From Lachnospiraceae bacterium (lineage in GTDB: Bacteria > Bacillota > Clostridia > Lachnospirales > Lachnospiraceae): DNA of 34,831 nt. The notes under the pieces were generated by a model, which saw only the letters and a program-made list of their open reading frames with translations, did no database searches and had not been told where the DNA came from. Both the position numbers and the translations under genes were made by a program. Shown here piece by piece: positions 20,484-34,592 of this stretch. The stretch spans positions 1 through 34,831 of the forward strand of contig JAQYAV010000023.1 of the NCBI GenBank assembly GCA_029338675.1. Direction: 5' to 3'. Numbering within the stretch: position 1 is the first letter of the stretch; every line of letters starts with the position of its first letter.

Positions 20484-22793
20484 TCAATGTATAATTTTAT
20501 TATTCGACATCCAGTTTTTCACCATATTAAAATCTGATTGGCTTATTTTTTCATTTGAAAAGCCAGCCTTTTCTAATATTTCTGTTATTATATCCTTGTT
20601 ATATGACATATTTTTTTCATTTACCGAATTATATCTAAATAATATCTCAACCTGATCTCGATAATTGACTTTATCCATAATTTGTTTATTTCTTCTGCAT
20701 TGTTTTTTCCAGTGACGCCCAAACAAAAGAACTAGCTTTTCATTTATATCGCCACGTAAATATTTATATGCAAAAATATAATAATCTCTTCCCAATGCCA
20801 CAATTCCAATAGCAATCAATCCAGCTATAAACATTACAATTGCAATTGTCGACTTTTCTATAATGTTATCTGGGATTTGAAATACATTTTGTGTCGCATC
20901 CTGTGTGTCATCTTCATTAATTATTCTGTCAAATGCACTCCAGAAATCCTCAACGTATTCTTCGTCTCCACCACTTGGAGTAACATCCACAACATGCCAA
21001 CCCAAGTTCTCATTATAAATTTCTACCCATGCATGAGCATCTGCATCAGAAACATTAACTTTAATAAGTGCTGTTTTTCCTAATTCTGAATAACCATCAT
21101 ACATATCCTCATACTTTGTTTCATCTACAAGATCTCCCATAAGTATCTGGTCATAATCTATTCTATAGCCTTCCACATATCTGGCAGGAATTCCCTTTGC
21201 TCTATATGCGAGCACTGCTGCAGAAGCAAAATATGAACAATACCCTTTTCTTCCATCTGTAAGAAAATAGTTAACAAAATCCTCTTGCTTAGGAATTTTA
21301 CCAGGACTTACAGTATATGGTATATTCTGCTGATAGTAATCTTTAAGTGCCTTTGTAAAGTCTTCTTCAGTTTTTGTTTCTCCTATTTCTTTAACAAAGT
21401 CCTTTATTACCTCTTCATTTTCTGGATGAATATACAAGTCCTTATACGAATATGGACCTATCTCTCCATAATAATGCTCGTCTACCTTAGTATCATTTCC
21501 CTCTATTCTCGGATAAAATACTATCTCTGTATATCCCATATCCTCTTGTGATTTTTCGTTTGTATAATACGGAATATAATCTTCATTTGGAATGCCACCA
21601 ACATTTTTAACATACATTTTGGCTTTTGCAGATTTTGCAGCATTATTTTCATAGGCATGTTTTAATGCATTGGACTCTTGAACAAGTCCCTTGTCTTCAA
21701 CAACATTTGCCTTCTCCCAACGATTTTCATAAGGAACATATTCAACTCCAACAAACTGCCTTAAATATACAGGCTCATAATCATATGGTGTTAACTGAAC
21801 AACTAAATCTGTCATATGATCCAACTTTACAGACGAAACATTTCCAAGCTGTCCTCTGTCCATTCCACCAACAGAATTCTTTACATCGAAAAATCCCTGC
21901 CATCCATCTACAAGAAATGTTCCAACTGCTGCCATTGTTACCTGTTTATATTTATTAGGTGTATAGTTTTGGTTAAATGTCTCCTGAGGAGAAAGCCTCA
22001 ATATAGAAGATACTGCAACAAGTACTATTGCAACAATAATTATACTTGTTTCTATAACTGATTTTATATCATTTACATAAGCTATTTCTTTCTTCTTTTT
22101 CTCATATTTTCTATTATTTCTATTTACTGCAATTTGCGGACTATAGTGTTTTCCTGCCTTTAATACAATAGCAATTGCATACCCAAATAATAGCATTAAT
22201 ACAAATATTATATCTGGATTAACTTCTAGATATATTGGAACAAAGTTCAAAAACATTGTAATAAATATAGCTGTCATATACTGCATTCGACGTGAAATAT
22301 ACACATTGAGCAAAATATTCATTACAACACCTATAAATATTGCCGCCATAGTAACAGTAAGATATCTGTTTTCAATTTGCTCGGTATAAAGCTTTTGAGC
22401 ATTAACGCCAAAATATCTAGCTGCCTCATCAACTGTGATATTAACTATTGCATAAAATCCACTGTTTATTACAATTTTGAGTTTTAATACAAGAAGTCCA
22501 AATAAGCTAAGTAATATTAAGTATCCCAGATTTTCTGTAAGTAATCGATAATATAATCCCGCACATAAAAAAGCTGTTACAAATATTACTGCATTAACAA
22601 GTAAAAAATTATATGCAATATTAAAAGACGAAAGGTAAAATCCAATACTTCCCATTGTAAGCAAATATACTAGAAATCCCTTCAGCAATAACATAAATAT
22701 TCTATTTTCTTTTTTCTCAAAAAATGAATTTGTGAGCCAAACCCCATTACAAAGCTCAATATTTTCATTTTTCTCCTGTTTATTTTTTGCCAC
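20484..22793 (-). CDS. Membrane transglutaminase-like protein (TgpA type)
   Basis: A protein of 769 residues. The N-terminal half has seven or so membrane segments (about 32-270). An external transglutaminase-like domain follows (about 450-640). The Cys-His-Asp triad is intact: Cys519 in GYCSYFA, His587 in DAHAWVEI and Asp603 in VVDVTPSGG. Another membrane segment (about 650-675) leads to a cytoplasmic tail. This is the usual third member of the MoxR/DUF58/transglutaminase cassette, whose role is not established, although cell-envelope functions are suspected. The start is GTG at 22793, sharing one base with the DUF58 stop (TAGTG), with AAGGAG eight bases upstream. Translation is therefore probably coupled. 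Confidence 0.92.
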   Translation of the reverse strand: MAKNKQEKNENIELCNGVWLTNSFFEKKENRIFMLLLKGFLVYLLTMGSIGFYLSSFNIAYNFLLVNAVIFVTAFLCAGLYYRLLTENLGYLILLSLFGLLVLKLKIVINSGFYAIVNITVDEAARYFGVNAQKLYTEQIENRYLTVTMAAIFIGVVMNILLNVYISRRMQYMTAIFITMFLNFVPIYLEVNPDIIFVLMLLFGYAIAIVLKAGKHYSPQIAVNRNNRKYEKKKKEIAYVNDIKSVIETSIIIVAIVLVAVSSILRLSPQETFNQNYTPNKYKQVTMAAVGTFLVDGWQGFFDVKNSVGGMDRGQLGNVSSVKLDHMTDLVVQLTPYDYEPVYLRQFVGVEYVPYENRWEKANVVEDKGLVQESNALKHAYENNAAKSAKAKMYVKNVGGIPNEDYIPYYTNEKSQEDMGYTEIVFYPRIEGNDTKVDEHYYGEIGPYSYKDLYIHPENEEVIKDFVKEIGETKTEEDFTKALKDYYQQNIPYTVSPGKIPKQEDFVNYFLTDGRKGYCSYFASAAVLAYRAKGIPARYVEGYRIDYDQILMGDLVDETKYEDMYDGYSELGKTALIKVNVSDADAHAWVEIYNENLGWHVVDVTPSGGDEEYVEDFWSAFDRIINEDDTQDATQNVFQIPDNIIEKSTIAIVMFIAGLIAIGIVALGRDYYIFAYKYLRGDINEKLVLLFGRHWKKQCRRNKQIMDKVNYRDQVEILFRYNSVNEKNMSYNKDIITEILEKAGFSNEKISQSDFNMVKNWMSNNKIIH

Positions 22794-23842
22794 TAGACAT
22801 TCTCCTTAACAACCACGTTGACTCCCCCCATACTTGCAGCCACGTGTATATATCTTAATATTTCAGGATGAATACTTCTCATATTACTAGCGCCCTCATC
22901 CGGTCTGTCATAGGTTTTTTCAAAAAACATTTTAGAAAATGCTTCATCTGCTTGGGCATGATAATCTATCTTATACCTTTTGAAATCATACCCCTTTTTG
23001 CTGAAATACATAAATTCTACAGACATTTTTTCATCAACTAACTTATGAACTAACGAGTATGCTGTTGAAATCGCATTATCAAATATCATATAGCTAGGAT
23101 TATATAACTCAAGAAAAACTACAATTTTCTCATCAGTCATGCTTGTTCTGTCTTTAACCATTAATTCATCTTTTTTTGCAGTTAGCTTCCAATGAATATT
23201 GTTAAGTACATCTCCTGGAATATATTCTCTAATGTCGCTAACCTCTGAATAGTCACTACCCTTTTTTGTACTTTCCTCATTCTCTGTAGTGCCTGCTGAT
23301 ACAATATTTCGATTAATCTCCATCTGAGTTTTTATGTTAGGTAAAACCATAAACTCGCTTTTCTTATTAATTTTTTTCTTTAGGAAGCATATTCCAATAA
23401 AATCCTTAATTAATACTCTTTTGACTTCAATAGATACAATACCTGAGTACTCAGACACAATAGGAATATCCAGCAAAAATCCTTTAAATGCTCTTACAGG
23501 CACAGATATTGTTTGCTCTCCCTTAGTTTCAAAAAATTCATTTTCTATTGTTAGTTCAAGCTTGCAATCAAGACATGTAAGAAATGTTGGATTCTTAATT
23601 TTAATCCTTACAAGCATTTCCTCCCCTTGCTTAAAGCCCTCTTGATTTGCTAAACTCACTGCGCCATTTAACTCTACTGAAAGCTTTGACCTAAGCACAG
23701 CTGCTGCAGTAACAGATATAACTGGTGCAATTGCCAATAGCATCAAAGTCACAAAGAGGAAATGACTATGAAAGAATAAATAGCACCCCACATCTATTGC
23801 AATAAGTACTATATATCCTATTACCCTTACTATTATTTCCAT
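22793..23842 (-). CDS. DUF58 domain protein
   Basis: A protein of 349 residues. Two membrane segments lie near the N-terminus (about 5-50), then a beta-rich domain and the DUF58 core with the signature REYIPGDVLNNIHWKLTAKKDELMVK (from about 205). DUF58 proteins have a von Willebrand A-like fold and accompany MoxR ATPases; the ATPase is thought to act on them as a chaperone or remodeller. The gene sits between moxR (43 bases upstream) and the transglutaminase gene (one-base overlap). GGTGA precedes the ATG. Family assignment is firm and molecular function unknown. Confidence 0.92.
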   Translation of the reverse strand: MEIIVRVIGYIVLIAIDVGCYLFFHSHFLFVTLMLLAIAPVISVTAAAVLRSKLSVELNGAVSLANQEGFKQGEEMLVRIKIKNPTFLTCLDCKLELTIENEFFETKGEQTISVPVRAFKGFLLDIPIVSEYSGIVSIEVKRVLIKDFIGICFLKKKINKKSEFMVLPNIKTQMEINRNIVSAGTTENEESTKKGSDYSEVSDIREYIPGDVLNNIHWKLTAKKDELMVKDRTSMTDEKIVVFLELYNPSYMIFDNAISTAYSLVHKLVDEKMSVEFMYFSKKGYDFKRYKIDYHAQADEAFSKMFFEKTYDRPDEGASNMRSIHPEILRYIHVAASMGGVNVVVKENV

Positions 23843-23885
23843 ACATTATTCACCATTCTCACTATTTTGCTACATATCCATTATA

Positions 23886-24812
23886 TTACATTCTAGGATT
23901 TCCAATATTATGCATCAAATTATTAAGTGCCGCTTTTGTATCAATACCCTGTGCCTTAGCTCTTGCACTTACCTTCACTCTATGTCCAAGAACATCAATC
24001 AACACATCCTGTATATTTTCAGCTGTAACAAAATCTCGTCCCTCAATAACTGCCATAGCCTTTGCCATCTTAAGCAATGCAATGCTTCCACGAGGACTAA
24101 CTCCCATTGAAAACATCTCGTTATTTCTTGTTGTTTCAACAAGATTAACAATATACTCATATAACTGCTCGTGAACAAACACCTGGTTTGCTTTTTTTCT
24201 ATACTGAACTAACTCTTCCAATGTAATAACCTTATTCACACTGTCCAAAGGCTTATTAGCATTTCCCTTTAGTATCTCTACAGCATCTGCATGGCTTGGA
24301 TATCCCATGGAAAGACATACCATAAATCTGTCTAACTGGGATTCAGGAAGCATCTGAGTACCTGATGATCCATATGGATTTTCTGTTGCTATTACAACAA
24401 ATGGATCTGGAAGTGGTCTTGTCACACCGTCAACAGTTGCCTTTCCTTCCTCCATAACCTCAAGCAAAGCCGACTGTGTTTTTGGAGATGTTCTATTAAT
24501 TTCATCTGCCAAAAACAGATTACAAAATATTGAACCAGGTCTATATTCAAAATCCTTTGTTCCTGCATTATACATAGAAAAACCTAATATATCACTTGGC
24601 AATATATCTGGAGTAAACTGAACTCTCTTATAATCAAGTGACATTGTCTTTGCAAATGTAACCGCAAGTGTAGTTTTACCCACACCTGGAATATCCTCCA
24701 TTAGAATATGTCCCCCTGCTATTACTGCAGCAAGCACCTTTTTAACAACATCATTTTTCCCCTTAATAACCTTGTTAATCTCGTCTTGCACCAATTGCAT
24801 TTTACTATCCAT
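23886..24812 (-). CDS. MoxR family AAA+ ATPase
   Basis: A cytoplasmic AAA+ ATPase of 308 residues. Walker A is GVGKTT (43-48), and Walker B LFLADE with Asp103 and Glu104, followed by INRTSPKTQSALLEVMEE, the MoxR hallmark. Sensor 1 is ATENP, and sensor 2 lies in GVSPRGS. It opens the MoxR/DUF58/transglutaminase operon. GGGGGGA precedes the ATG. An extended -10 promoter lies about 110 bases upstream. MoxR proteins are thought to act as chaperones for partner proteins; the target here is probably the DUF58 protein, as inferred from gene order. Confidence 0.95.
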   Translation of the reverse strand: MDSKMQLVQDEINKVIKGKNDVVKKVLAAVIAGGHILMEDIPGVGKTTLAVTFAKTMSLDYKRVQFTPDILPSDILGFSMYNAGTKDFEYRPGSIFCNLFLADEINRTSPKTQSALLEVMEEGKATVDGVTRPLPDPFVVIATENPYGSSGTQMLPESQLDRFMVCLSMGYPSHADAVEILKGNANKPLDSVNKVITLEELVQYRKKANQVFVHEQLYEYIVNLVETTRNNEMFSMGVSPRGSIALLKMAKAMAVIEGRDFVTAENIQDVLIDVLGHRVKVSARAKAQGIDTKAALNNLMHNIGNPRM

Positions 24813-25106: not shown

Positions 25107-25218
25107 TATCTTCTCAATATTATATTACAAATATTATATATTATTTTGTAATACCAAGCTTATATCTTCTCAATATTGCGTTACAAATATTATATATTAT
25201 TTTGTAATACCAAGCTTA
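25107..25218. repeat. 56-bp tandem duplication spanning the 3' end of the malic enzyme gene
   Basis: Two head-to-tail copies, 25107-25162 and 25163-25218, differ only at three adjacent bases (ATA against GCG). The copy inside the gene encodes its last residues, LGITK, and the stop. The other copy repeats these codons and the stop in the 3' untranslated region. The high identity suggests a recent event or maintained structure. Confidence 0.93.
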
Positions 25219-26366
25219 ACTGCTTCATCTGCAACAGCCTTTGCTACTACCTTAGCTACTCTTTCATCAAAAGCACCTGGAATAATGTATTCTTCATTTA
25301 ATTCCTCGTCAGATACAATCGAAGCAATTGCCTTAGCAGCCGCAATCTTCATTTCCTCTGTAATTCCTGTTGCTTTAGCATCTAATGCACCTCTGAATAT
25401 TCCTGGGAATACAAGTACGTTATTAATCTGATTTGGATAATCTGAGCGACCTGTTGCCATAACTCTGGCTCCACCCTTAAATGCCTCCTCAGGCATAATC
25501 TCTGGTGTTGGGTTTGCCATAGCGAATACAATTGCATCCTTGGCCATTGTTGAAACCATTTCTGCAGTTACGATGTTAGGCGCAGATACACCAATAAATA
25601 CATCCTTGCCCTTCATTATCTCTGCAAGATTACCTCTTTGCTTATCTTTGTTAGTAATTTCTGCCATTTCAGCCTGAGCAGGATTCATCCAGACTTCACC
25701 TGGACAAAGCGCTCCATTTTTATCAACCAATACTACATTTCCAATTCCAAGCTGTAATAACAACTTACAAATTGAAATACCTGCCGAACCAGCACCATTA
25801 ATAACTACATTTACCTCATTAAATTTCTTTCCAACAAGCTTCACTGCATTAAGTAATCCTGCTGAAACAACGATAGCAGTACCATGCTGATCATCGTGGA
25901 ACACAGGAATATCAAGTTCCTCCTTAAGTCTTCTTTCAACCTCAAAGCATCTTGGAGCTGAAATATCCTCAAGATTAATACCACCAAATACAGGGGCAAT
26001 TCTCTTAACTGTTTCAACTATTTCATCTACATCCTTAGTATCAAGGCAAATTGGAAACGCATCTACATTACCAAACTCCTTAAATAATATTGCCTTTCCT
26101 TCCATAACAGGAATAGCTGCTTCAGGACCAATATCTCCAAGACCAAGAACTGCTGTACCATCAGATACAACGGCTACCATGTTTGACTTACAAGTATATT
26201 TGTAAACATCTGCCTTATTGTCTCTAATTTTTCTGCAAGGCTCTGCTACACCTGGTGTATATGCTGTACTAAGATCATTTCTATCCTTAATTTTAACTTT
26301 AGAAACAACCTCAATCTTTCCTTGATTTTCCTCATGCATTTTTAAGCTTAGTTCATTGAAATCCAT
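25197..26366 (-). CDS. Malic enzyme (malate dehydrogenase, decarboxylating)
   Basis: A cytoplasmic enzyme turning malate into pyruvate and CO2 with NAD(P) reduction; 389 residues, the usual short bacterial form without a phosphotransacetylase extension. The catalytic Tyr36 is in AYTPGV and Lys91 in EGKAILFK; the metal-binding acidic residues lie in the FEVERRL and HDDQHGTA stretches. The Rossmann motif is INGAGSAGI. Cofactor preference cannot be decided with certainty. It lies 31 bases after a small coiled-coil gene, and GAGGAAC precedes its ATG. Its 3' end has been duplicated in tandem, which leaves the protein itself unchanged. Confidence 0.95.
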   Translation of the reverse strand: MDFNELSLKMHEENQGKIEVVSKVKIKDRNDLSTAYTPGVAEPCRKIRDNKADVYKYTCKSNMVAVVSDGTAVLGLGDIGPEAAIPVMEGKAILFKEFGNVDAFPICLDTKDVDEIVETVKRIAPVFGGINLEDISAPRCFEVERRLKEELDIPVFHDDQHGTAIVVSAGLLNAVKLVGKKFNEVNVVINGAGSAGISICKLLLQLGIGNVVLVDKNGALCPGEVWMNPAQAEMAEITNKDKQRGNLAEIMKGKDVFIGVSAPNIVTAEMVSTMAKDAIVFAMANPTPEIMPEEAFKGGARVMATGRSDYPNQINNVLVFPGIFRGALDAKATGITEEMKIAAAKAIASIVSDEELNEEYIIPGAFDERVAKVVAKAVADEAVKLGITK

Positions 26367-26397: not shown

Positions 26398-26658
26398 TTA
26401 TCTCATCTTAACCTGGTCAATCTCACTATTGTATCCAGATATTCTTGCCTTAGCCTCTGTAATACTATTAACAAAACCACTTAGCGTCTCATCAGTTATC
26501 TCAAGGTTCTGATAATTATTAAATACATACTCACCAATCTTTACGTATGTTTCATTTATATCTGTCTTTTCCTTAGTAATCTTAGCCTTAAGCTTACCAA
26601 TTTCAATAGTGTCCTTTGTTCCTGTTTTTACTGAATTAACAATATCCTTAAATTCCAT
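26398..26658 (-). CDS. Small coiled-coil protein of unknown function
   Basis: A protein of 86 residues from the ATG at 26658 (MEFKDIV); an upstream ATG five codons earlier overlaps the strong ribosome site GGAGG, so the later start is preferred. The sequence is mostly charged helix (IEIGKLKAKITKEKTDINETYVKIGEYVFNN is one such stretch by composition), with no signal peptide, no cysteines and no membrane segment. It has the look of small cytoplasmic coiled-coil proteins sometimes linked to zinc-ribbon proteins, but no family was recognised. It lies 31 bases before the malic enzyme gene and is probably cotranscribed with it. Confidence 0.75.
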   Translation of the reverse strand: MEFKDIVNSVKTGTKDTIEIGKLKAKITKEKTDINETYVKIGEYVFNNYQNLEITDETLSGFVNSITEAKARISGYNSEIDQVKMR

Positions 26659-26749
26659 ATTATTTTCCTCCATTCACTGTATATATTTAATAATAAATAA
26701 GCCTTCAACAATTTGCTTCTCATTCGAAATGAGTATATCACTCAAAAAA

Positions 26750-27625
26750 TCAAAAATCAAATATAGATAATTGCTCGCCAGTTACTTTATTCTTGTACTC
26801 GCGCATATATCTAAATAATTCTTCCCTATCTCTTATGATATTATTCTCATCACATGTAGTATTAAATATCTTCATAAGCTTATCATTATCTGGACTTAAT
26901 ACCTCATAGGAATCCCCATAGGTTTCAATATACTTTTCTTTAAGTCCAGGGAATTTTTCGTCTAGTTTCTCATAGAAATATTCTCTATTTCCATCTCTTA
27001 ATGTAAGACCCATTCCAAAATTAATTATTCCGTATACATTTGCCTCAATACAATAATCTAGAATCGCCCTAATGTTTTCTTCTGTATCATTAATAAATGG
27101 CAATATTGGGCTAAGCCAAACAATTGTAGGAATCCCACGTTTGTTCATCTCCTTGAGAACTTCTACTCTTTCCTTCGTAGTACAAACTGCCGGTTCTATT
27201 TTCTTACATAATTCTTCGTCTGCTGTTGTAAGAGTCATAGCAACTATACATTTTGTCTTCTTATTTATCTTCTCAAGTACATCAATGTCTCGCATTATAA
27301 GATTAGACTTTGTCTGAATAACTAGTCCAAAATCAAATCTCTCAATCTGGTTAAGAGCTCTTCTTGTAATCTGAAGCTCTTCCTCGATAGGCACATATGG
27401 ATCTGTCATAGAACCTGTACTTATCATACTCTTATTTCTTTTTCTCTTTAACGTGTATTCTAGTAGCTGGTCAGCCTTCGCTTTCACCTCAATGTCTTCA
27501 AAATCGTGATTCATTCTATAACACTTGCTTCTCGAATCACAATATATACATCCATGTGTACATCCACGATAAAGATTCATTCCATTTTGTGGTGATAATA
27601 TAGCTTTAACTTCCTTGTAATGCAT
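26750..27625 (-). CDS. Radical SAM protein, spore photoproduct lyase-like (SplB/Rv2578c type)
   Basis: An enzyme of 291 residues. The iron-sulfur cluster motif CxxxCxxC is intact, with Cys22, Cys26 and Cys29 in RGCTHGCIYC. Then come the conserved STGSMTDPYVPIEEE, QTKSNLIMRDIDVL and WLSPILPFINDTEENI, typical of the SPL family of uncharacterised radical SAM proteins that are shorter than true spore photoproduct lyase. Without the lyase's own active-site Cys context, DNA repair cannot be claimed. It lies 60 bases after jetC on the same strand without a clear terminator, so read-through from the Jet operon is possible. GGATGA precedes the ATG. Confidence 0.9.
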   Translation of the reverse strand: MHYKEVKAILSPQNGMNLYRGCTHGCIYCDSRSKCYRMNHDFEDIEVKAKADQLLEYTLKRKRNKSMISTGSMTDPYVPIEEELQITRRALNQIERFDFGLVIQTKSNLIMRDIDVLEKINKKTKCIVAMTLTTADEELCKKIEPAVCTTKERVEVLKEMNKRGIPTIVWLSPILPFINDTEENIRAILDYCIEANVYGIINFGMGLTLRDGNREYFYEKLDEKFPGLKEKYIETYGDSYEVLSPDNDKLMKIFNTTCDENNIIRDREELFRYMREYKNKVTGEQLSIFDF

Positions 27626-27685: not shown

Positions 27686-30600
27686 CTAAATAAAATCAAA
27701 ACTTACCTGTTCAAATTCCAAATCATGATACTCAAGTTTCTCCTGTTCTACATTGCTTGTGTAGTCCGTAACAACTGTAAGCTGCTTTCCACCTGACATC
27801 TGCTGTCCCAAAATGTAATTCACGTCAAATCTTCCTGTTATTGCAGGTGTTGCACCACGTGCTGGTACAATAAGCTGAACATTGTTAGCCTTAAGAAGCG
27901 CAAATATCGGCTCCCATATATACACATCCTTCGCTGCACCAAATGGGTTATCAATAAATATAGTTTTAGTTCTAACGTCCTCATTTCCCACCTGATACAT
28001 GCCAGATATGTAATTAATAATAGATACCAAAAACTGAATATAAATACCCTGTGACTGTCCTGTACTACCAACTGCCTCCTCATATTTGAGGTATCTACTT
28101 TGTTCCCTAATACGTTCTCGCTTATATAAATTAAGCTTTATTGCATTCATATCAGTAACAATGACACCAAATAGCTTCTTTAATGCCAAACTGTTTCTAA
28201 TAAATTTAATTCTGTCTTTATCGTTTTGGTAATCATCCGCCTGAGACACTACCTTATCGATATATTCAGACATACGCTGCTTTAGGAATTCATCCTTAAC
28301 ATATGGCACCGTAAGACCAACCATCTGAATTGGCTCATCATCAGCAATAATTCTAGATAATTTAGGAAGCTTGTCAAGCTCAGTTCTAACATCAAGGCAT
28401 CTTTGTAGACATTGTTCTTCAAAATTCTCCTTGATAGTCTCCATATCAACTAAGCTCTTCAAAATTCTATCCTTCTCCAACCTAATGTAATCCGCTATTG
28501 ACTTAAGATTTTCCATAAGTGCCTTTGCATTATCATAGTCTATTGGAATTACAACATCATCTCTTATTGTTGTCGCTAATTCATAGACTTCCATTTGATC
28601 AAGTGTTGTTGCTGTTGTGCCCTTGAACTTAAGAAGTTCGTTTTTAGCTCTGTCAAGATTCTTATTAACCTTATCAAATTTAAGAAGGTTCTCCTCAAAG
28701 ATTTCTCTAAGCTTTTCCTTATCCTCATCTATAGGCTTAGCATTATCTAGGCTTATCTCATTAGTAGTAACAATTCTCTTAACATCCTTGTAAAGCTCAA
28801 TCATATATCCCTGTTGTCTTAGGTATACTTTATATTCTTCTTCACAAGCCTTTGCTTCCTTCTCAAGTCTTATAAGTAGCTCCTCACCATTTTCAAGATT
28901 AGTTACTATTTCAGACAAGCTATCATTACTCTCAACATACTGTCCAAAAGCATCCATAATATTTCTTATGGCATATTCCACACTTCCTTCAAGCCGGTTT
29001 AATGCTGAAATCTTGTCCTTTAATTTTTTCTCACACTCTGATATCTGGTCCTTAGTATCGCTAATATTTTCTCGGCAGGCTTCAAGTACACTGTCATCTG
29101 ACTGGTATAAATACTGACTGCTCTCATACTCTCTAAGCTTATCAATGCTAACCCCACGTTTGTCTATACTCTTAAGACTTCTATCCATAGCAATCTTAAT
29201 TGTATCCATAACCATTCGTTTGTCTTCAATAGCCTTTGCGTCATTCTTACCAGCCTCTAAGCCTGCAATAAATCTTGCCTTTATCTCATCATCTGACAAT
29301 GTAAGAATTTCATATTCCTGGTCAATGTTATAATAGGATTTGTAATACGTATTCCACTCATTTTCCAATTCAAGTTCTTTTTTACTAAACTCCTTTATGC
29401 GTGCCTCAGCTTCCACAACTGTCTTATTTTCATCATTAGCTTCATTTGTAAATTTCTCAACAGTTTCCTCTAATCTGGCTATATCCAAATTACATTTTTC
29501 TACTATATCCTCTTGTTTTTTTATTACGTCTGTAAGCTGTTCAATAGTAAATAACTTATTCTTGTCTGCTAAGCATTTTTCAAGTTCCTGCTGCTTATCC
29601 TTTATGGTTTCATTTTCCTTGCGAAGACCTGATTGATAATCCTTAAGCTTATCCTTTGATGCTTCAATTTGCTCATCAATATCTCTCTTCTTTTGCTTCG
29701 CGTCTGATAAAATTTTACCAGCATTTAAGAATTCTGAATCCGACAACCTAAGAACAAATTCATGATCTAAATGATATGTCTCAAGCATCTCCTCTCGCAT
29801 CTCTAGCTGCTGCTCATACTCTTTAAGAGACATTTCCTCCGACTCAATTAACTTCTCAACTGTATCTTCACTAGTTAAGTATTCCCTTGACGCACGTACT
29901 GTAAATACATTTTCCCCAGAACGAATTGCTTTTTCTTCAAGGTTATCCATATCGTAAATATTTACGAAGCACTCCCCTGTATCTACTGAAGAAATGTTCT
30001 GATCTTCTCTAATAGTGTCAAAGTCCTTAACAACAACACCATAAGGCAAATCTGGATTTGCATCTAATAATGCTCGTTTATCATCCACTTCAAGAGCTGA
30101 AAGATAATCCATTCCGTACATTGCAGTTATTCCATGTCTTGTTTCGATATAATCAATTACCGTAGCTGCTGCCTTAGATACTGCAATAATTCTTCCTTCT
30201 TTTAATCGATTTACCTTCTTTTGACTTTCCTTAACACTATCCTTTAATTTATGTATATCTAATATAGCCTGTGTAATTCTTGAAGTAATTAATTCAGGAA
30301 GATTTGAAACCTCACTTGCTCCATATATTGACTTAATATTATTAAGTTTCTCTGATGCCTCATTAAATTCCTGTTCTTTAACAGACATCTTAGAAATAAA
30401 TTCATCATTTTCAGCCTTCTCAACCTGAAGCTTCAATAAGCTTTGTCTTTCTTCCTGAACCAAGCTATTATAATTATCTATTGCTTCGCGAGCATTTGAG
30501 ATAGCTTCATTTATTAAATCAAGCTCTTCAGTTGTTTCCATCATCTGCTGCTCAAGCTTTGCAAACTTGATATTATTCATAGACATTCTTACTGCCGAAA

Positions 30601-32092
30601 GTTTTTCACTTATTGTTACTATTTCTTCCTCGGCATTTTTCTTCTCATTTTGAGCTACAGCTAGACTAATTTTAGATTCATGAAGCATCTTCTCACGATA
30701 TTTTTTCTTTGATTTTTCTTCCTCAATACTATCTGATATAGCTTGAATATTACTTCTAATGTCAGTAAGCATTACATCTAAACGCATTTTAATATTATAT
30801 GCATATGTATACATAGTCTCCTCGTCAAAGGAAGACTCTGACATCATATTTTTAATAACTGCATCTAACTGATAATACTTCTTTCTATCTTCAATATACT
30901 CAAGATATTCGTTAATGCTTTCCTTGAGATTCAAGTCCGTAGTCAGCTCATTTAATCTATCATTTTGTTCCTTAAGCTTCTTCTCATAAGCAGATACCTC
31001 ACTCTTAAGCTGTTCTATCTGTCGTTTATCTTTAGAAACCTTTAAGCATTCTATCTTTTCTCTTTGCTTATTCTTTTGCGCTCTCTTCTCGTCCTTTATG
31101 CGAGCAAGCTCCTCCATTCGCTGTTCATCCTGCTTAGCAAATTCCTCTCCTGTTACACATATATTTGCAATAAGCTTAGATAATTTATCCTGCTCCTGAT
31201 ATATATCCATGAAGGAGGCTACCTTATCCGACAAAAGCTCAATAAGCTCTATCTGGTGATCATATAGGGAAATGTCCTTCTTTTTCTGTGCCAAAACAGT
31301 AAGCTGCTCCTTAATGTCCATAAGCATTTTAGCCATAGAGTCTGAGCCTTCCTCATCACGTTCTGTTTTAACCATATAAGCCTTCTCTATAATCTCCTCA
31401 ATTAAAAGATCCTCTACAACCTTTCTTGTTGTTTTATAATTATTTTCAAAATAAGTTCTTACATGTCCCTCAGTTTTATTTATTCCTCGAATAATTTCCC
31501 ACTGACTTTCATGAATCCCAAAGCCACTTATAAATCTTTGATATTCACCTTTTCTCTCGAACACCTTAACATCAAGTGACATGTCCTTATGAGGAAGCTC
31601 CTTAAGATAGCTCTTAAGTCCCTGAAAGCTTATTCGTTCCCCATCCTTAACAAGAGGCAAATTAATAATATCATTTTTGTTAAATTCTCTATAAAATATA
31701 CAATAGTTAAAATATTCTATAGAGGCGACATCCTTTTGTTCTCCAGCAGAAGCTTCTTCACTTTCCTTTGCCTTTCTAGCACAAAAGCCTGTTGTCATAT
31801 ATCGATAGCCTTCGCTATTACTACCATCCTCCAGCTTCCATTCCACTAAGGAATGAATAGTTGTATTTCCATTTCCAGTTCTAAAAAGCTTCTCAATAGG
31901 CTGCTTTTCATCCAAAGTACAATTGGGTATCATATTCTGTAAAAGTAAAAGCATAAGCACACTCTTGCCTCCACCATTTGCCAAATCGTACAAAGTATTC
32001 TTTCCATACAATCTCATTGTAAAATCATCATAAAACTGTGTTCCGAAATTATATTTTACATTATTTACTCTTATTCTATTAATACTAGGCAT
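27686..32092 (-). CDS. jetC: SMC-like ATPase of a Wadjet/MksBEF-type condensin (JetC-like)
   Basis: A very long protein (1468 residues from the ATG at 32092; a GTG three codons earlier is possible). The head halves are at the two ends. Walker A is NGGGKS (39-44), and near the C-terminus come a signature-like GSTGQSQG (about 1342-1349) and a Walker B TIFIDNPFG (Asp1381). Between them two long Glu/Lys-rich coiled coils flank a hinge-like globular part (about 635-745). This is the SMC/MukB layout. In Wadjet the complex senses and extrudes loops on circular DNA. The Walker B has Asn where most SMC proteins have the catalytic Glu. It overlaps jetB by eight bases, with GGAGG eight bases before the ATG. 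No jetD follows; the next gene is an SPL-like protein. Confidence 0.78.
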   Translation of the reverse strand: MPSINRIRVNNVKYNFGTQFYDDFTMRLYGKNTLYDLANGGGKSVLMLLLLQNMIPNCTLDEKQPIEKLFRTGNGNTTIHSLVEWKLEDGSNSEGYRYMTTGFCARKAKESEEASAGEQKDVASIEYFNYCIFYREFNKNDIINLPLVKDGERISFQGLKSYLKELPHKDMSLDVKVFERKGEYQRFISGFGIHESQWEIIRGINKTEGHVRTYFENNYKTTRKVVEDLLIEEIIEKAYMVKTERDEEGSDSMAKMLMDIKEQLTVLAQKKKDISLYDHQIELIELLSDKVASFMDIYQEQDKLSKLIANICVTGEEFAKQDEQRMEELARIKDEKRAQKNKQREKIECLKVSKDKRQIEQLKSEVSAYEKKLKEQNDRLNELTTDLNLKESINEYLEYIEDRKKYYQLDAVIKNMMSESSFDEETMYTYAYNIKMRLDVMLTDIRSNIQAISDSIEEEKSKKKYREKMLHESKISLAVAQNEKKNAEEEIVTISEKLSAVRMSMNNIKFAKLEQQMMETTEELDLINEAISNAREAIDNYNSLVQEERQSLLKLQVEKAENDEFISKMSVKEQEFNEASEKLNNIKSIYGASEVSNLPELITSRITQAILDIHKLKDSVKESQKKVNRLKEGRIIAVSKAAATVIDYIETRHGITAMYGMDYLSALEVDDKRALLDANPDLPYGVVVKDFDTIREDQNISSVDTGECFVNIYDMDNLEEKAIRSGENVFTVRASREYLTSEDTVEKLIESEEMSLKEYEQQLEMREEMLETYHLDHEFVLRLSDSEFLNAGKILSDAKQKKRDIDEQIEASKDKLKDYQSGLRKENETIKDKQQELEKCLADKNKLFTIEQLTDVIKKQEDIVEKCNLDIARLEETVEKFTNEANDENKTVVEAEARIKEFSKKELELENEWNTYYKSYYNIDQEYEILTLSDDEIKARFIAGLEAGKNDAKAIEDKRMVMDTIKIAMDRSLKSIDKRGVSIDKLREYESSQYLYQSDDSVLEACRENISDTKDQISECEKKLKDKISALNRLEGSVEYAIRNIMDAFGQYVESNDSLSEIVTNLENGEELLIRLEKEAKACEEEYKVYLRQQGYMIELYKDVKRIVTTNEISLDNAKPIDEDKEKLREIFEENLLKFDKVNKNLDRAKNELLKFKGTTATTLDQMEVYELATTIRDDVVIPIDYDNAKALMENLKSIADYIRLEKDRILKSLVDMETIKENFEEQCLQRCLDVRTELDKLPKLSRIIADDEPIQMVGLTVPYVKDEFLKQRMSEYIDKVVSQADDYQNDKDRIKFIRNSLALKKLFGVIVTDMNAIKLNLYKRERIREQSRYLKYEEAVGSTGQSQGIYIQFLVSIINYISGMYQVGNEDVRTKTIFIDNPFGAAKDVYIWEPIFALLKANNVQLIVPARGATPAITGRFDVNYILGQQMSGGKQLTVVTDYTSNVEQEKLEYHDLEFEQVSFDFI

Positions 32093-32798
32093 CTGATTCA
32101 CCTCCTAGAACGCGGTAAATTCGTCCCTTATACTCCTCAAAATAATTCTCCACAACAGCCTTAAATCTGTCAGTTGGATAATATCTATCTTCTACATCAA
32201 GAAATAATTTTTGAGAAATAAGGAAATTAAAACAAAGCTTAACATATCCTGTTCGAGATGCTTTTGATGCACGATTTTTATCCTTATCTTCAGAAGTAAC
32301 CGCTGGAAGTTCATCCCATAACAATGCTATCGTCTTGAAGCTATCCTCCTCAAGCTCGTCCATTGAATACACCGATAAATCACTTGTAATCTGTGATAAA
32401 TAATTACTAACCTGTTCCATAACATCCTCAAGCTTAATATATTCCTTAACCTGATATGATGCTGAATCCTGATAAAACATCAAAAGGACATTATACATAA
32501 TAAAGTAAACCATATATAGCTCTTTATTAAGTCTAAGACCTAGCTTATGCTTAACATCATCATTTGTATATCCAAATATTCTATTTCCCTCTTCAGCAGT
32601 AATATAGATTCCGTCATTATACTCATATATACACAAATTAAGCTTCTTAATTAGCTTAACTGTAACATCATATACAGCCGCATTAGAATAAAATTCTTCA
32701 TATAAATCTCTTGTCTCAGGATTAGAACGGGAAACCTCCTGGCCAGTAATAAGCGCAGCGTATATATCTAATGCCTTATCTAAGCTTCTATCTTCCAT
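32085..32798 (-). CDS. jetB: MukE-like winged-helix subunit (JetB-like, DUF6063-like)
   Basis: A protein of 237 residues, mostly helical, without signal peptide or enzyme motif. Early residues (SLDKALDIYAALITGQEV) and the middle part with GIYITAEEGNRIFGY and YMVYFIMYNVLLMFYQD fit the JetB/MukE-type subunits found between a kleisin gene and an SMC gene. The C-terminus has a winged-helix-like stretch (LCFNFLISQKLFLDVEDRYYPT). Such subunits bind the kleisin and DNA. It begins two bases after the jetA stop, with its AAGGAGG site inside jetA, and overlaps jetC. The pattern is of strict co-translation in equal amounts. Assignment rests mainly on gene order and size, supported by family resemblance. 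Confidence 0.72.
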   Translation of the reverse strand: MEDRSLDKALDIYAALITGQEVSRSNPETRDLYEEFYSNAAVYDVTVKLIKKLNLCIYEYNDGIYITAEEGNRIFGYTNDDVKHKLGLRLNKELYMVYFIMYNVLLMFYQDSASYQVKEYIKLEDVMEQVSNYLSQITSDLSVYSMDELEEDSFKTIALLWDELPAVTSEDKDKNRASKASRTGYVKLCFNFLISQKLFLDVEDRYYPTDRFKAVVENYFEEYKGRIYRVLGGESDA

Positions 32799-32800
32799 TG

Positions 32801-34372
32801 TTAACCGTTCCTCCTTTCAAATATCATATCTGTAACCAAGAATTTGTCCGCATCATCTTCCTCTGACAAATACGACATAAGAACAACATCCTCATCTCCA
32901 AATTCTATAGTAAAATCCATATCAATAAATTTATCAATGGCCTCTTTATCTAAATTACGAACAACCATTTCCTCAAGCATAGTATCCTGCTTCTCCACCA
33001 TCTGCTTTAGGTTGTATTCCCTCTTGCCTGCCAAATGAACCAAAAATGCATAATAATCTCTATTAGCAAATATCTCTTCTCCAAACTTAATTTCAAGAAT
33101 TCCATTAAATTCCTTCAAAGTAACCTTGTTCCACTTCTTAAGCTGATCTAACAATTCATAGAAGATTTTTCCAAAGTTTGCTGCAATCTTTGTATCTAAT
33201 ATCTCATCCTCATACTTAAAATCCATATCAAGTGGAGCATTTTCAACCTTCTCGCCCTTTGCCTTATCATCAGATCTAAGTGTCAAAATATTATCGATAG
33301 ATTTAACACTAAATGTTTTCTCTATCTTCGGCGCAAATAACGGAAGCAAAATATGTGCCATATCCTCTGGCCTATCCTTATCCATCATCTTAAGCATACA
33401 CTGTCTAAAATCAAATATAGGTCTTAATTTTCTAAGCTTTGCACGATTAATAATATTGTCAGAAAATTGTTGCAATTCCATAGTCTGCGCAATAAGCTGA
33501 CTATGGTTATATATGGTTTTCTTAAGCTCAGTCTCAAGACTGCTTATTTCCTCCATGGCTTTGGATCTAAGTGTTCCTTTTCCGTCAGCCGATTTATTTT
33601 CAAACTGTGCTCTTTCTATAGCCTTATCAACTAATGCCTTATTCTTAACAAATAGCTTTTGCTCCTCTGAAAACCATTTTGCAGTAGTATCCATGTACTC
33701 TTCATACGCCTTCGCTCCCTCAAATACATCAATGCTTAGCAACTTTAATACCCTGTCTTTTTCAAGCTTAATCTGTGTTACTTGGCTATTTATTCTCTTT
33801 ACAACATCTATTCCGCCCTTAAAGTTATTAGACGTAATCATTTTCTCCAACAACAACTGAGAAACATTAATCTTACTTTCGTCTCTTATCTCTTTTGTAT
33901 CTAAATAAAATTCTATTCCGTCTGAAGTAATTGTATAAAGCACTTGCCCATTGCTAATTCTACTTTCAATAAGTTTCACTCTAGCAACCTTAGTAGTTTT
34001 GTTTTCAGGATCAAAGAATTTAAATTCAAATGCCTTACCATCATTTTTAAGCTTATCAAATATATATGCAATCAATTGTTTTTTTTCGTCTTCCGACTCG
34101 TTAATATCGAAATCACGTTCCAGTAGTTCTGCCAAAAAGCCCTCATATTCTTCATATGTAATATCTTTTTCATGGAAATTATTCTCATTAATTAAATAAC
34201 GCAAGGATGCCATAGTAATATAACCCATATCCAAAAAGTTATACTTTCCCTCCTTATATTGCGAAAAAGTTGTTTCACAAAGAACAAAAAAAGGATAATA
34301 CTTTTTAAGGTTATGCATCCTCGCATTATGCTCTGAAATTATATCATTTATCATTACATGCTTTAACGCCAT
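32801..34372 (-). CDS. jetA: Kleisin-like subunit of a Wadjet/MksBEF-type condensin (JetA-like)
   Basis: A cytoplasmic protein of 523 residues. The first 200 residues look like winged-helix domains (YPFFVLCETTFSQYKEGKYNFLDMGYITMA and SDGIEFYLDTKEIRDE). A long helical middle follows (about 200-340), then a C-terminal domain that would contact the SMC head. Kleisins bridge the two SMC heads; JetA plays this part in Wadjet and MukF in MukBEF. It heads the three-gene operon jetA-jetB-jetC with spacing of 2 and -8 bases. GGTGAATT precedes its ATG. A possible promoter lies 60 bases upstream and a terminator for the gene before it. The match to the JetA family is by overall pattern, so it should be confirmed by profile search. 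Confidence 0.72.
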   Translation of the reverse strand: MALKHVMINDIISEHNARMHNLKKYYPFFVLCETTFSQYKEGKYNFLDMGYITMASLRYLINENNFHEKDITYEEYEGFLAELLERDFDINESEDEKKQLIAYIFDKLKNDGKAFEFKFFDPENKTTKVARVKLIESRISNGQVLYTITSDGIEFYLDTKEIRDESKINVSQLLLEKMITSNNFKGGIDVVKRINSQVTQIKLEKDRVLKLLSIDVFEGAKAYEEYMDTTAKWFSEEQKLFVKNKALVDKAIERAQFENKSADGKGTLRSKAMEEISSLETELKKTIYNHSQLIAQTMELQQFSDNIINRAKLRKLRPIFDFRQCMLKMMDKDRPEDMAHILLPLFAPKIEKTFSVKSIDNILTLRSDDKAKGEKVENAPLDMDFKYEDEILDTKIAANFGKIFYELLDQLKKWNKVTLKEFNGILEIKFGEEIFANRDYYAFLVHLAGKREYNLKQMVEKQDTMLEEMVVRNLDKEAIDKFIDMDFTIEFGDEDVVLMSYLSEEDDADKFLVTDMIFERRNG

Positions 34373-34561: not shown

Positions 34562-34592
34562 CAGAATGAAATGACCTAATCACTTCATTCTG
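34562..34592 (-). terminator. Terminator of the AAA-ATPase/nuclease gene at the right edge
   Basis: A 13-bp stem (34562-34574 with 34580-34592, one G-U pair in the minus transcript) has a five-base loop and is followed by TTTTTTATT. It lies about 70 bases past the stop of the right-edge gene and isolates the jet operon from it. Confidence 0.88.

Follow-up and report, generated by a model that had tools for sequence, protein, structure and literature searches.

The described systems closest to the operon reported here are Wadjet type III (JetD3-A3-B3-C3), MksBEF of Pseudomonas and MukBEF of Escherichia coli. According to a passage of PMC7485682, MksBEF is likewise an operon of a kleisin, a KITE protein and a structural maintenance of chromosomes (SMC) ATPase, without a nuclease, in a cell that contains SMC. 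A section of the review PMC10586767 describes MksBEF as a likely derivative of JetABCD through loss of the nuclease JetD and raises, for MukBEF and MksBEF, the proposal that defence complexes may give rise to chromosomal condensins once they shed the nuclease. A 2025 MukBEF study (PMC7617805, partial text) notes that several members of the Wadjet group besides MukBEF lack MksG/JetD; JetD-less operons of this group in general are already in print. The PADLOC predictor requires the full JetABCD set for a Wadjet call and assigns Muk-like cases without JetD to 'Wadjet other', with a warning by its authors about confusion (PMC9252829, in part). Here, we analyzed contig JAQYAV010000023.1 of the Lachnospiraceae bacterium assembly GCA_029338675.1 over its entire length of 34,831 bp (hereafter, the window); the host genome comprises 2.85 Mb in 171 contigs and is 99.97% complete. 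The minus strand of the window carries a jetABC operon without jetD. We conclude that it is a Wadjet III core whose lineage probably lost JetD once, that it is a largely vertically inherited chromosomal gene set, and that it probably serves as a second condensin and not as a plasmid cutter.

The operon consists of three co-directional and tightly packed genes with open reading frames. The jetA gene (32801..34372, minus strand; 523 aa) encodes the kleisin subunit, jetB (32085..32798, minus strand; 237 aa) the KITE/MukE-like subunit, and jetC (27686..32101, minus strand) the SMC ATPase, with 1471 aa from a GTG codon or 1468 aa from an alternative ATG three codons inside. The first two genes are separated by 2 bp, jetB and jetC overlap by 17 bp, and the jetA start codon is backed by M1-A2, invariant across 25 aligned sequences. 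PADLOC assigned the three proteins over nearly full length to JetA3 (PDLC00560, E = 1.8e-217), JetB3 (E = 5.4e-103) and JetC3 (PDLC00581, E = 0; 1814 bits, full model). JetB also matched Pfam DUF6063 at 7.7e-47 and was the only one of the three subunits above a Pfam cut-off, and none of the three exceeded a cut-off in NCBIfam.

The PDB searches with profiles of the JetA, JetB and JetC alignments returned coiled-coil or chance matches alone, and when JetA and JetB were compared by profile with MukF, MukE and four type I/II-like proteins each, nothing significant emerged, so the support for a Jet/Muk placement came from fold comparison instead. The AlphaFold2 model of JetA reached a predicted local distance difference test score of 68.5 and a predicted template modelling (TM) score of 0.31. 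In the Foldseek comparison with the PDB, the six top-ranked chains came from JetABC or MukBEF structures, led by 8q72_E (E = 8.5e-4) and 9gm7_D (E = 1.8e-3), with low query TM-scores of 0.15-0.22; we read these chains as kleisins from their lengths. Jet/Muk KITE structures were likewise top-ranked for the predicted fold of JetB, also with low TM-scores. The models thus point to a kleisin subunit with a MukF/JetA fold and a KITE subunit with a MukE/JetB fold. The initial annotation, made from the letters alone, had proposed a JetABC-type condensin in jetABC order; both the PADLOC assignments and the folds put these proteins within Jet/Muk, and by its profile matches the operon is type III, which sharpens the earlier label. 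The window operon is confirmed as the JetABC core of Wadjet type III. It has the same three core families at full length and the same A-B-C order. The similarity to MukBEF lies in the kleisin and KITE folds and in the missing nuclease; JetABC differs from it by coexisting with ScpA, and its profiles show no significant match to either MukE or MukF.

The absence of an adjacent jetD, claimed from the start, also held. The JetD models matched none of the four window proteins run through PADLOC, and a JetD profile matched no open reading frame (ORF) of the window. The gene order of type III is D-A-B-C and JetD is expected upstream, so the downstream side is uninformative about its absence. As only 459 bp are visible upstream of jetA, this gap was covered by genome-wide searches and by relatives with long upstream flanks. 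Since Pfam PF09983 at E<=0.001 overlooked a true type III JetD in genome G233, a second, type III JetD profile was made; it was built by iteration from JetD proteins themselves, and its members score 4e-64 or better. In the host genome, no JetD was found with PF09983 at E<=10, nor with the 20-sequence type III JetD alignment at E<=0.01, and we rejected a recent lesion or an overlooked JetD in this genome on these empty searches.

The relatives came from three samples. The family sample comprised 250 genomes, of which 36 had a JetA match (33 strong and 3 weak); the named relatives were the best 80 of 220; and the class sample gave a type III match in 19 of 291 genomes, at 20 places. After removal of nine duplicates among 114 loci, the JetD-less clade counted 105 distinct loci. 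The JetD profile, run over all ORFs, matched in none of these 105; in 95 of them, 1.5 kb or more of sequence precedes jetA. In contrast, it matched in each of the 20 remaining type III JetA loci that were retrieved (three from the family and 17 from the class), always directly upstream of jetA, although some of these loci (such as L083, L203 and L213) end at a contig edge before jetC finishes. The JetD-bearing loci have the order D-A-B-C, and the clade has only A-B-C. The absence of JetD is therefore a lineage trait and not a local lesion. Both outcomes that the initial annotation had named as refuting, a JetD gene beside the operon in relatives and proteins outside the Jet/Muk families, failed to appear.

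JetD proteins of any type, detected with PF09983 at E<=0.001, occurred in 10 of the 33 JetABC carriers, always on another contig, versus 70 of the 217 other genomes; thus, JetD of any kind is not enriched in carriers. Genomes G151 and G174 (loci L238 and L239) have a JetD-less JetABC plus a complete, separate type III D-A-B-C operon with a full-length type III JetD match. The JetA survey gave too low a count of JetD-linked type III loci in the family, and these two copies were found only via their JetD, so they provide no independent test of JetD linkage.

The maximum-likelihood tree of JetA (74 rows, including 19 of the 80 named loci) separated the 53 JetD-less proteins from the remaining rows by a single branch supported at 100/100. 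The JetD state changed once on this tree, compared with a mean of 18.6 changes for shuffled labels. The tree of the JetC head (63 rows) agreed, with a value of 98 in the Shimodaira-Hasegawa-like approximate likelihood ratio test; six D-linked JetC rows without the exact motif strings were omitted from it, and locus L213 is in neither tree. Rooting at the midpoint places the JetD-less clade within the D-linked rows, a pattern that suggests a single loss of JetD. The JetD-linked JetA proteins of G157, G233, G151 and G174, all from the family of the window, formed one 100/100 group with rows from two other families. In the class sample, the JetD-less type was confined to the window's own family (G000, G180 and G384), and the other 16 matching genomes were JetD-linked. 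Among the named relatives, 58 of 80 are titled Lachnospiraceae and most others bear wider Clostridia or Eubacterium names. Two are labelled Bacteroides or Bacteroidales (L148 and L159); the L159 locus coincides with that of G188 from the window's family. MksBEF belongs with Wadjet I, in contrast to the type III core described here with its SMC subunits of about 1470 aa, and we infer that the loss of JetD in this clade was an event separate from MksBEF.

The operon has largely descended together with ScpA. Distances of JetA and ScpA correlated with r=0.80 over 26 genomes, and those of JetC and ScpA with r=0.81 over 24 genomes; 0 of 5000 permutations were as high. The JetA and ScpA trees had 12 of 23 bipartitions in common, against a mean of 0.22 after shuffling. 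For this comparison, ScpA was taken from 26 of the 33 carriers, with the ORF chosen by BLAST; the mean JetA identity among the 26 genomes was 45%. The ratio of nonsynonymous to synonymous substitution rates (dN/dS) ranged from 0.009 to 0.11 in all 30 gene comparisons from 10 close pairs; some pairs have a member in common, some dS values exceed 1, and the pair of the window and L097 was excluded as dS was saturated for jetA and jetC. By these substitution ratios, jetABC is under strong purifying selection. ScpA itself was present in the host genome (6e-43), in 33 of 33 carriers and in 240 of the 250 family genomes. Hence, JetABC does not replace Smc-ScpAB as in strict enterobacterial MukBEF, ScpA being the subunit of Smc-ScpAB that was searched.

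The JetC of the window has a Walker A motif LANGGGKS, a signature GSTGQSQG and a Walker B motif FIDNPFGAAKD, located near the two ends of a long protein as in SMC ATPases, with Asn at the position of the catalytic Glu. The Walker A NGGGKS and the STGQSQG string were kept in 89 of 89 distinct clade JetC proteins longer than 1300 aa. The clade signature GSTGQSQG differs from the NSGGE of the two D-linked proteins read (L084 and L085). For Walker B, we compared type III JetC proteins longer than 1300 aa, with L084, L085 and L196-L212 as the JetD-linked examples. Asp-Asn(-Pro) replaced Asp-Glu in 97 of 97 rows of the clade, counting duplicates, and in 17 of 17 JetD-linked rows, and four type I/II-like JetC proteins (L278-L281), whose type was not assigned by a model, carried Asp-Glu. 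The loss of the Walker B Glu was thus rejected as a sign of nuclease loss, because Asp-Asn is found throughout type III. We read the Asn as equivalent in position to E1407 of MukB, whose mutation gives the hydrolysis-deficient EQ form (PMC7617805, partial text). An analogous Glu-to-Gln change is described for Lamassu LmuB in the consulted part of PMC10586767.

The surroundings of the operon consist largely of core and metabolic genes. The genes dnaX-ybaB-recR lie upstream in 12 of 33 family loci (by clusters, with the Pfam names checked in one locus), and recR is 6-238 bp from jetA in the nine loci without an intervening ORF of at least 70 aa. This arrangement occurs only in the other sublineage and not in that of the window, whose similar loci have a radical SAM gene after the operon in 5 of 33 and a malic enzyme gene in 6 of 33 family loci. 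Of ten other recurrent neighbours that were scanned, one matched nothing and nine matched metabolic, transport, regulatory or cell-wall families (phosphofructokinase, ABC transporter ATPase, deaminase, class II aldolase, response regulator, amylase, PEP-utilising enzyme, Mur ligase and sugar kinase). No nuclease was found among the identified recurrent neighbour clusters, the smaller clusters being only partly identified. The operon is not always compact. Among 95 distinct loci with a complete gene set, seven have over 500 bp between jetA and jetB. In L133, L134, L136, L142, L150 and L154, jetA stands alone, and an intact jetC was located outside the fetched stretch in 6 of 6 named genomes checked. 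Its coordinates put it on another contig in five of them; in L133, it lies either on a separate contig or no less than 36 kb distant. A set of genes that disperses yet is kept in full would resemble housekeeping genes more than a mobile defence cassette.

These results are consistent with a second condensin. JetD would have been lost once, in or before the ancestor of the JetABC-carrying Lachnospiraceae. JetABC most probably loads on DNA and folds it or extrudes loops, by analogy with MukBEF and MksBEF. A complex that loads and extrudes or holds loops without a cutter would be functionally a condensin, and, as ScpA is present in the host genome and in all 33 carriers, it would be a second one beside a presumably working Smc-ScpAB. 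Its role would probably be chromosome organisation, segregation or replication-linked repair. JetABC also lacks a JetD/MksG nuclease, as do MukBEF and MksBEF. Of the three functions that the initial annotation had offered, chromosome organisation is the best supported, and a JetD encoded elsewhere has no support in the host genome.

Several observations weigh against this interpretation. The fold matches have low TM-scores, and just one has an E-value below 0.001. The preference for a loss of JetD over a gain depends on the midpoint root, in a tree with long D-linked branches. Elsewhere in their genomes, seven carriers show weak and partial similarity to the type III JetD alignment (E from 9e-6 to 9e-3). 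The congruence was tested with ScpA alone, and 11 of 23 bipartitions are unshared. The operon must have moved one or more times, as its location differs between the two sublineages. JetABC is patchy, with 33 of 250 family genomes, and is therefore dispensable for most of the family; this is unusual for a core chromosome function and argues against an essential role. One clade member, L080, has a split JetA reading frame. The Asn after the Walker B Asp makes ATP turnover uncertain, and the nuclease-linked type III JetC proteins have the same residue. No phenotype, Hi-C or biochemistry was found in the literature for this JetABC complex. Our searches found nothing naming DUF6063 and nothing on a JetD-less Wadjet under phrases for JetD absence, and the accessible text of the papers joining Wadjet and Lachnospiraceae gave nothing on a JetD-less JetABC. 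The main text of PMC7617805 includes neither 'Wadjet III' nor 'Lachnospir'; its Data S1 and supplementary figures may list this clade.

The first alternative is that JetABC still acts against plasmids or phages with a nuclease supplied in trans. This could be an enzyme of the host or a Toprim protein with no relation to JetD, and stalling of JetABC on circular DNA would activate it. Such a system would share its core with the nuclease-linked type III systems, as is observed, and the patchy distribution would fit defence. Some members of the clade have recR upstream, and its product contains a Toprim domain. In a single locus, L126 (11642-12649), a gene with DUF3644 and EC042_2821 matches, restriction-endonuclease-like, is inserted between jetA and jetB. 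However, the host genome has no JetD, carriers are not enriched in JetD, the identified recurrent neighbours include no nuclease, and RecR adjoins jetA only in the other sublineage. The core-gene contexts and the congruence with ScpA are also unlike those of defence islands. We therefore regard a JetD-unrelated nuclease acting in trans as unlikely, albeit worth keeping in view.

In the second alternative, JetABC restricts extrachromosomal DNA without cutting, by loading on small circles and compacting or silencing them, as proposed for Smc5/6. The division of labour implied in part of the review PMC10586767, with JetABC sensing shape and size in Wadjet and JetD cutting, is compatible with this, the conserved ATPase site suits DNA entrapment, and the Walker B Asn could favour a long-lived clamp. 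However, a silencing system is not expected to track ScpA so closely or to sit behind dnaX-ybaB-recR, which leaves this alternative quite unlikely. A functionless, decaying Wadjet remnant that recently lost JetD, as the missing JetD and the split jetA of L080 might indicate, is highly improbable given the low dN/dS values, the intact ATPase motifs in 89 of 89 proteins, and the spread of the JetD-less state over a clade as divergent in JetA as given above.

The last alternative unites JetABC and the radical SAM protein in one DNA-lesion repair module. The gene (26750..27625, minus strand; 291 aa) begins 60 bp after the jetC stop, as the initial annotation had noted, and a radical SAM gene directly follows jetC at 9-93 bp in 39 of the 63 named loci that have a JetC longer than 1300 aa and at least 900 bp downstream. 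The reading of its product as similar to spore photoproduct lyase was less fortunate: the protein is closer to the PA0069 and Rv2578c families (NCBIfam rSAM_PA0069, 157.9 bits with a cut-off of 360; Rv2578c, 137 bits), and the lyase model TIGR04070 gave only 21.8 bits (7.7e-5) with a cut-off of 400. The suggested partnership fared no better. The radical SAM family is present in 91 of 250 genomes, with 13 of the 33 JetABC carriers versus 78 of the 217 others, and we rejected the protein as a specific partner for this lack of genome-wide co-occurrence. L068 also has no such gene in its operon, and neither do the loci with dnaX-ybaB-recR. A common functional unit is accordingly very improbable, and we do not count the gene, a conserved neighbour of jetC within the window's sublineage, as a component. 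In L077 (12963-13844), the radical SAM protein beside jetC is without two of the three cluster cysteines while its gene is still open, and this type may be a dead enzyme in its sublineage.

A second neighbour was considered as a substitute partner. The c3 protein (727-1246 aa) is encoded downstream of jetC, directly or with one ORF between, in 20 of 33 family loci. In these (L051, 12796-15885, and 19 further family loci), it has TPR repeats at the N-terminus, an acidic linker that is long and variable, and a degenerate AAA region resembling SpoVK/CbbX/EccA. It matched in 242 of the 250 family genomes, with a weak match in the host genome (4e-21), and was rejected as a near-core neighbour that is not JetABC-specific. 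In the 12 JetABC-less genomes examined, c3 was not found following recR, and none offered a clean empty site.

Upstream of the operon, a putative terminator-like hairpin lies between the preceding gene and jetA (34562..34592, minus strand), with a 14-pair stem, a 3-base loop and a T-rich tail matching the consensus, in agreement with the terminator first described there. In L061, L072 and L074, a protein of 759-778 aa is encoded directly upstream of jetA; those of L061 and L074 have an N-terminal match to a cyclic-nucleotide-binding domain, one above and one below the cut-off. Downstream of the radical SAM gene, the window carries an ORF of 91 aa (26398..26673, minus strand) with no Pfam match above the cut-off, with a member of its cluster lying between jetC and the gene for malic enzyme in 6 of the 33 family loci. 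The latter (25197..26366, minus strand; 389 aa; Pfam malic 2e-33 and Malic_M 7.5e-26) also lies downstream of jetC in those 6 of 33 loci. Beyond it, at 20484-24812, are an AAA_3/AAA_lid_2 ATPase of 308 aa, which we take to be of the MoxR type, a protein of 349 aa with a weak DUF58 match, and a transglutaminase-core gene of 769 aa. This row has an identical order in five loci, the window among them.

The lineage signature described here is the opposite of that of defence: one loss of the nuclease on the tree, descent at the pace of ScpA, purifying selection and core-gene neighbours. The Asp-Asn Walker B found across type III raises the question of how such SMC proteins hydrolyse ATP. On a broader interpretation, for and against which we find the balance about even, Wadjet III was domesticated once in Lachnospiraceae into a second condensin, often placed behind dnaX-ybaB-recR and thereby linked to recombination and replication. 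Immunity would then have turned into chromosome upkeep for a second time, apart from MksBEF, and an SMC ATPase without the canonical catalytic glutamate may be a slow, long-lived DNA clamp. The clade would offer a second, natural test of the proposal that condensins arise from defence complexes, and, because G151 and G174 carry both forms, the two fates may be compared within one cell.

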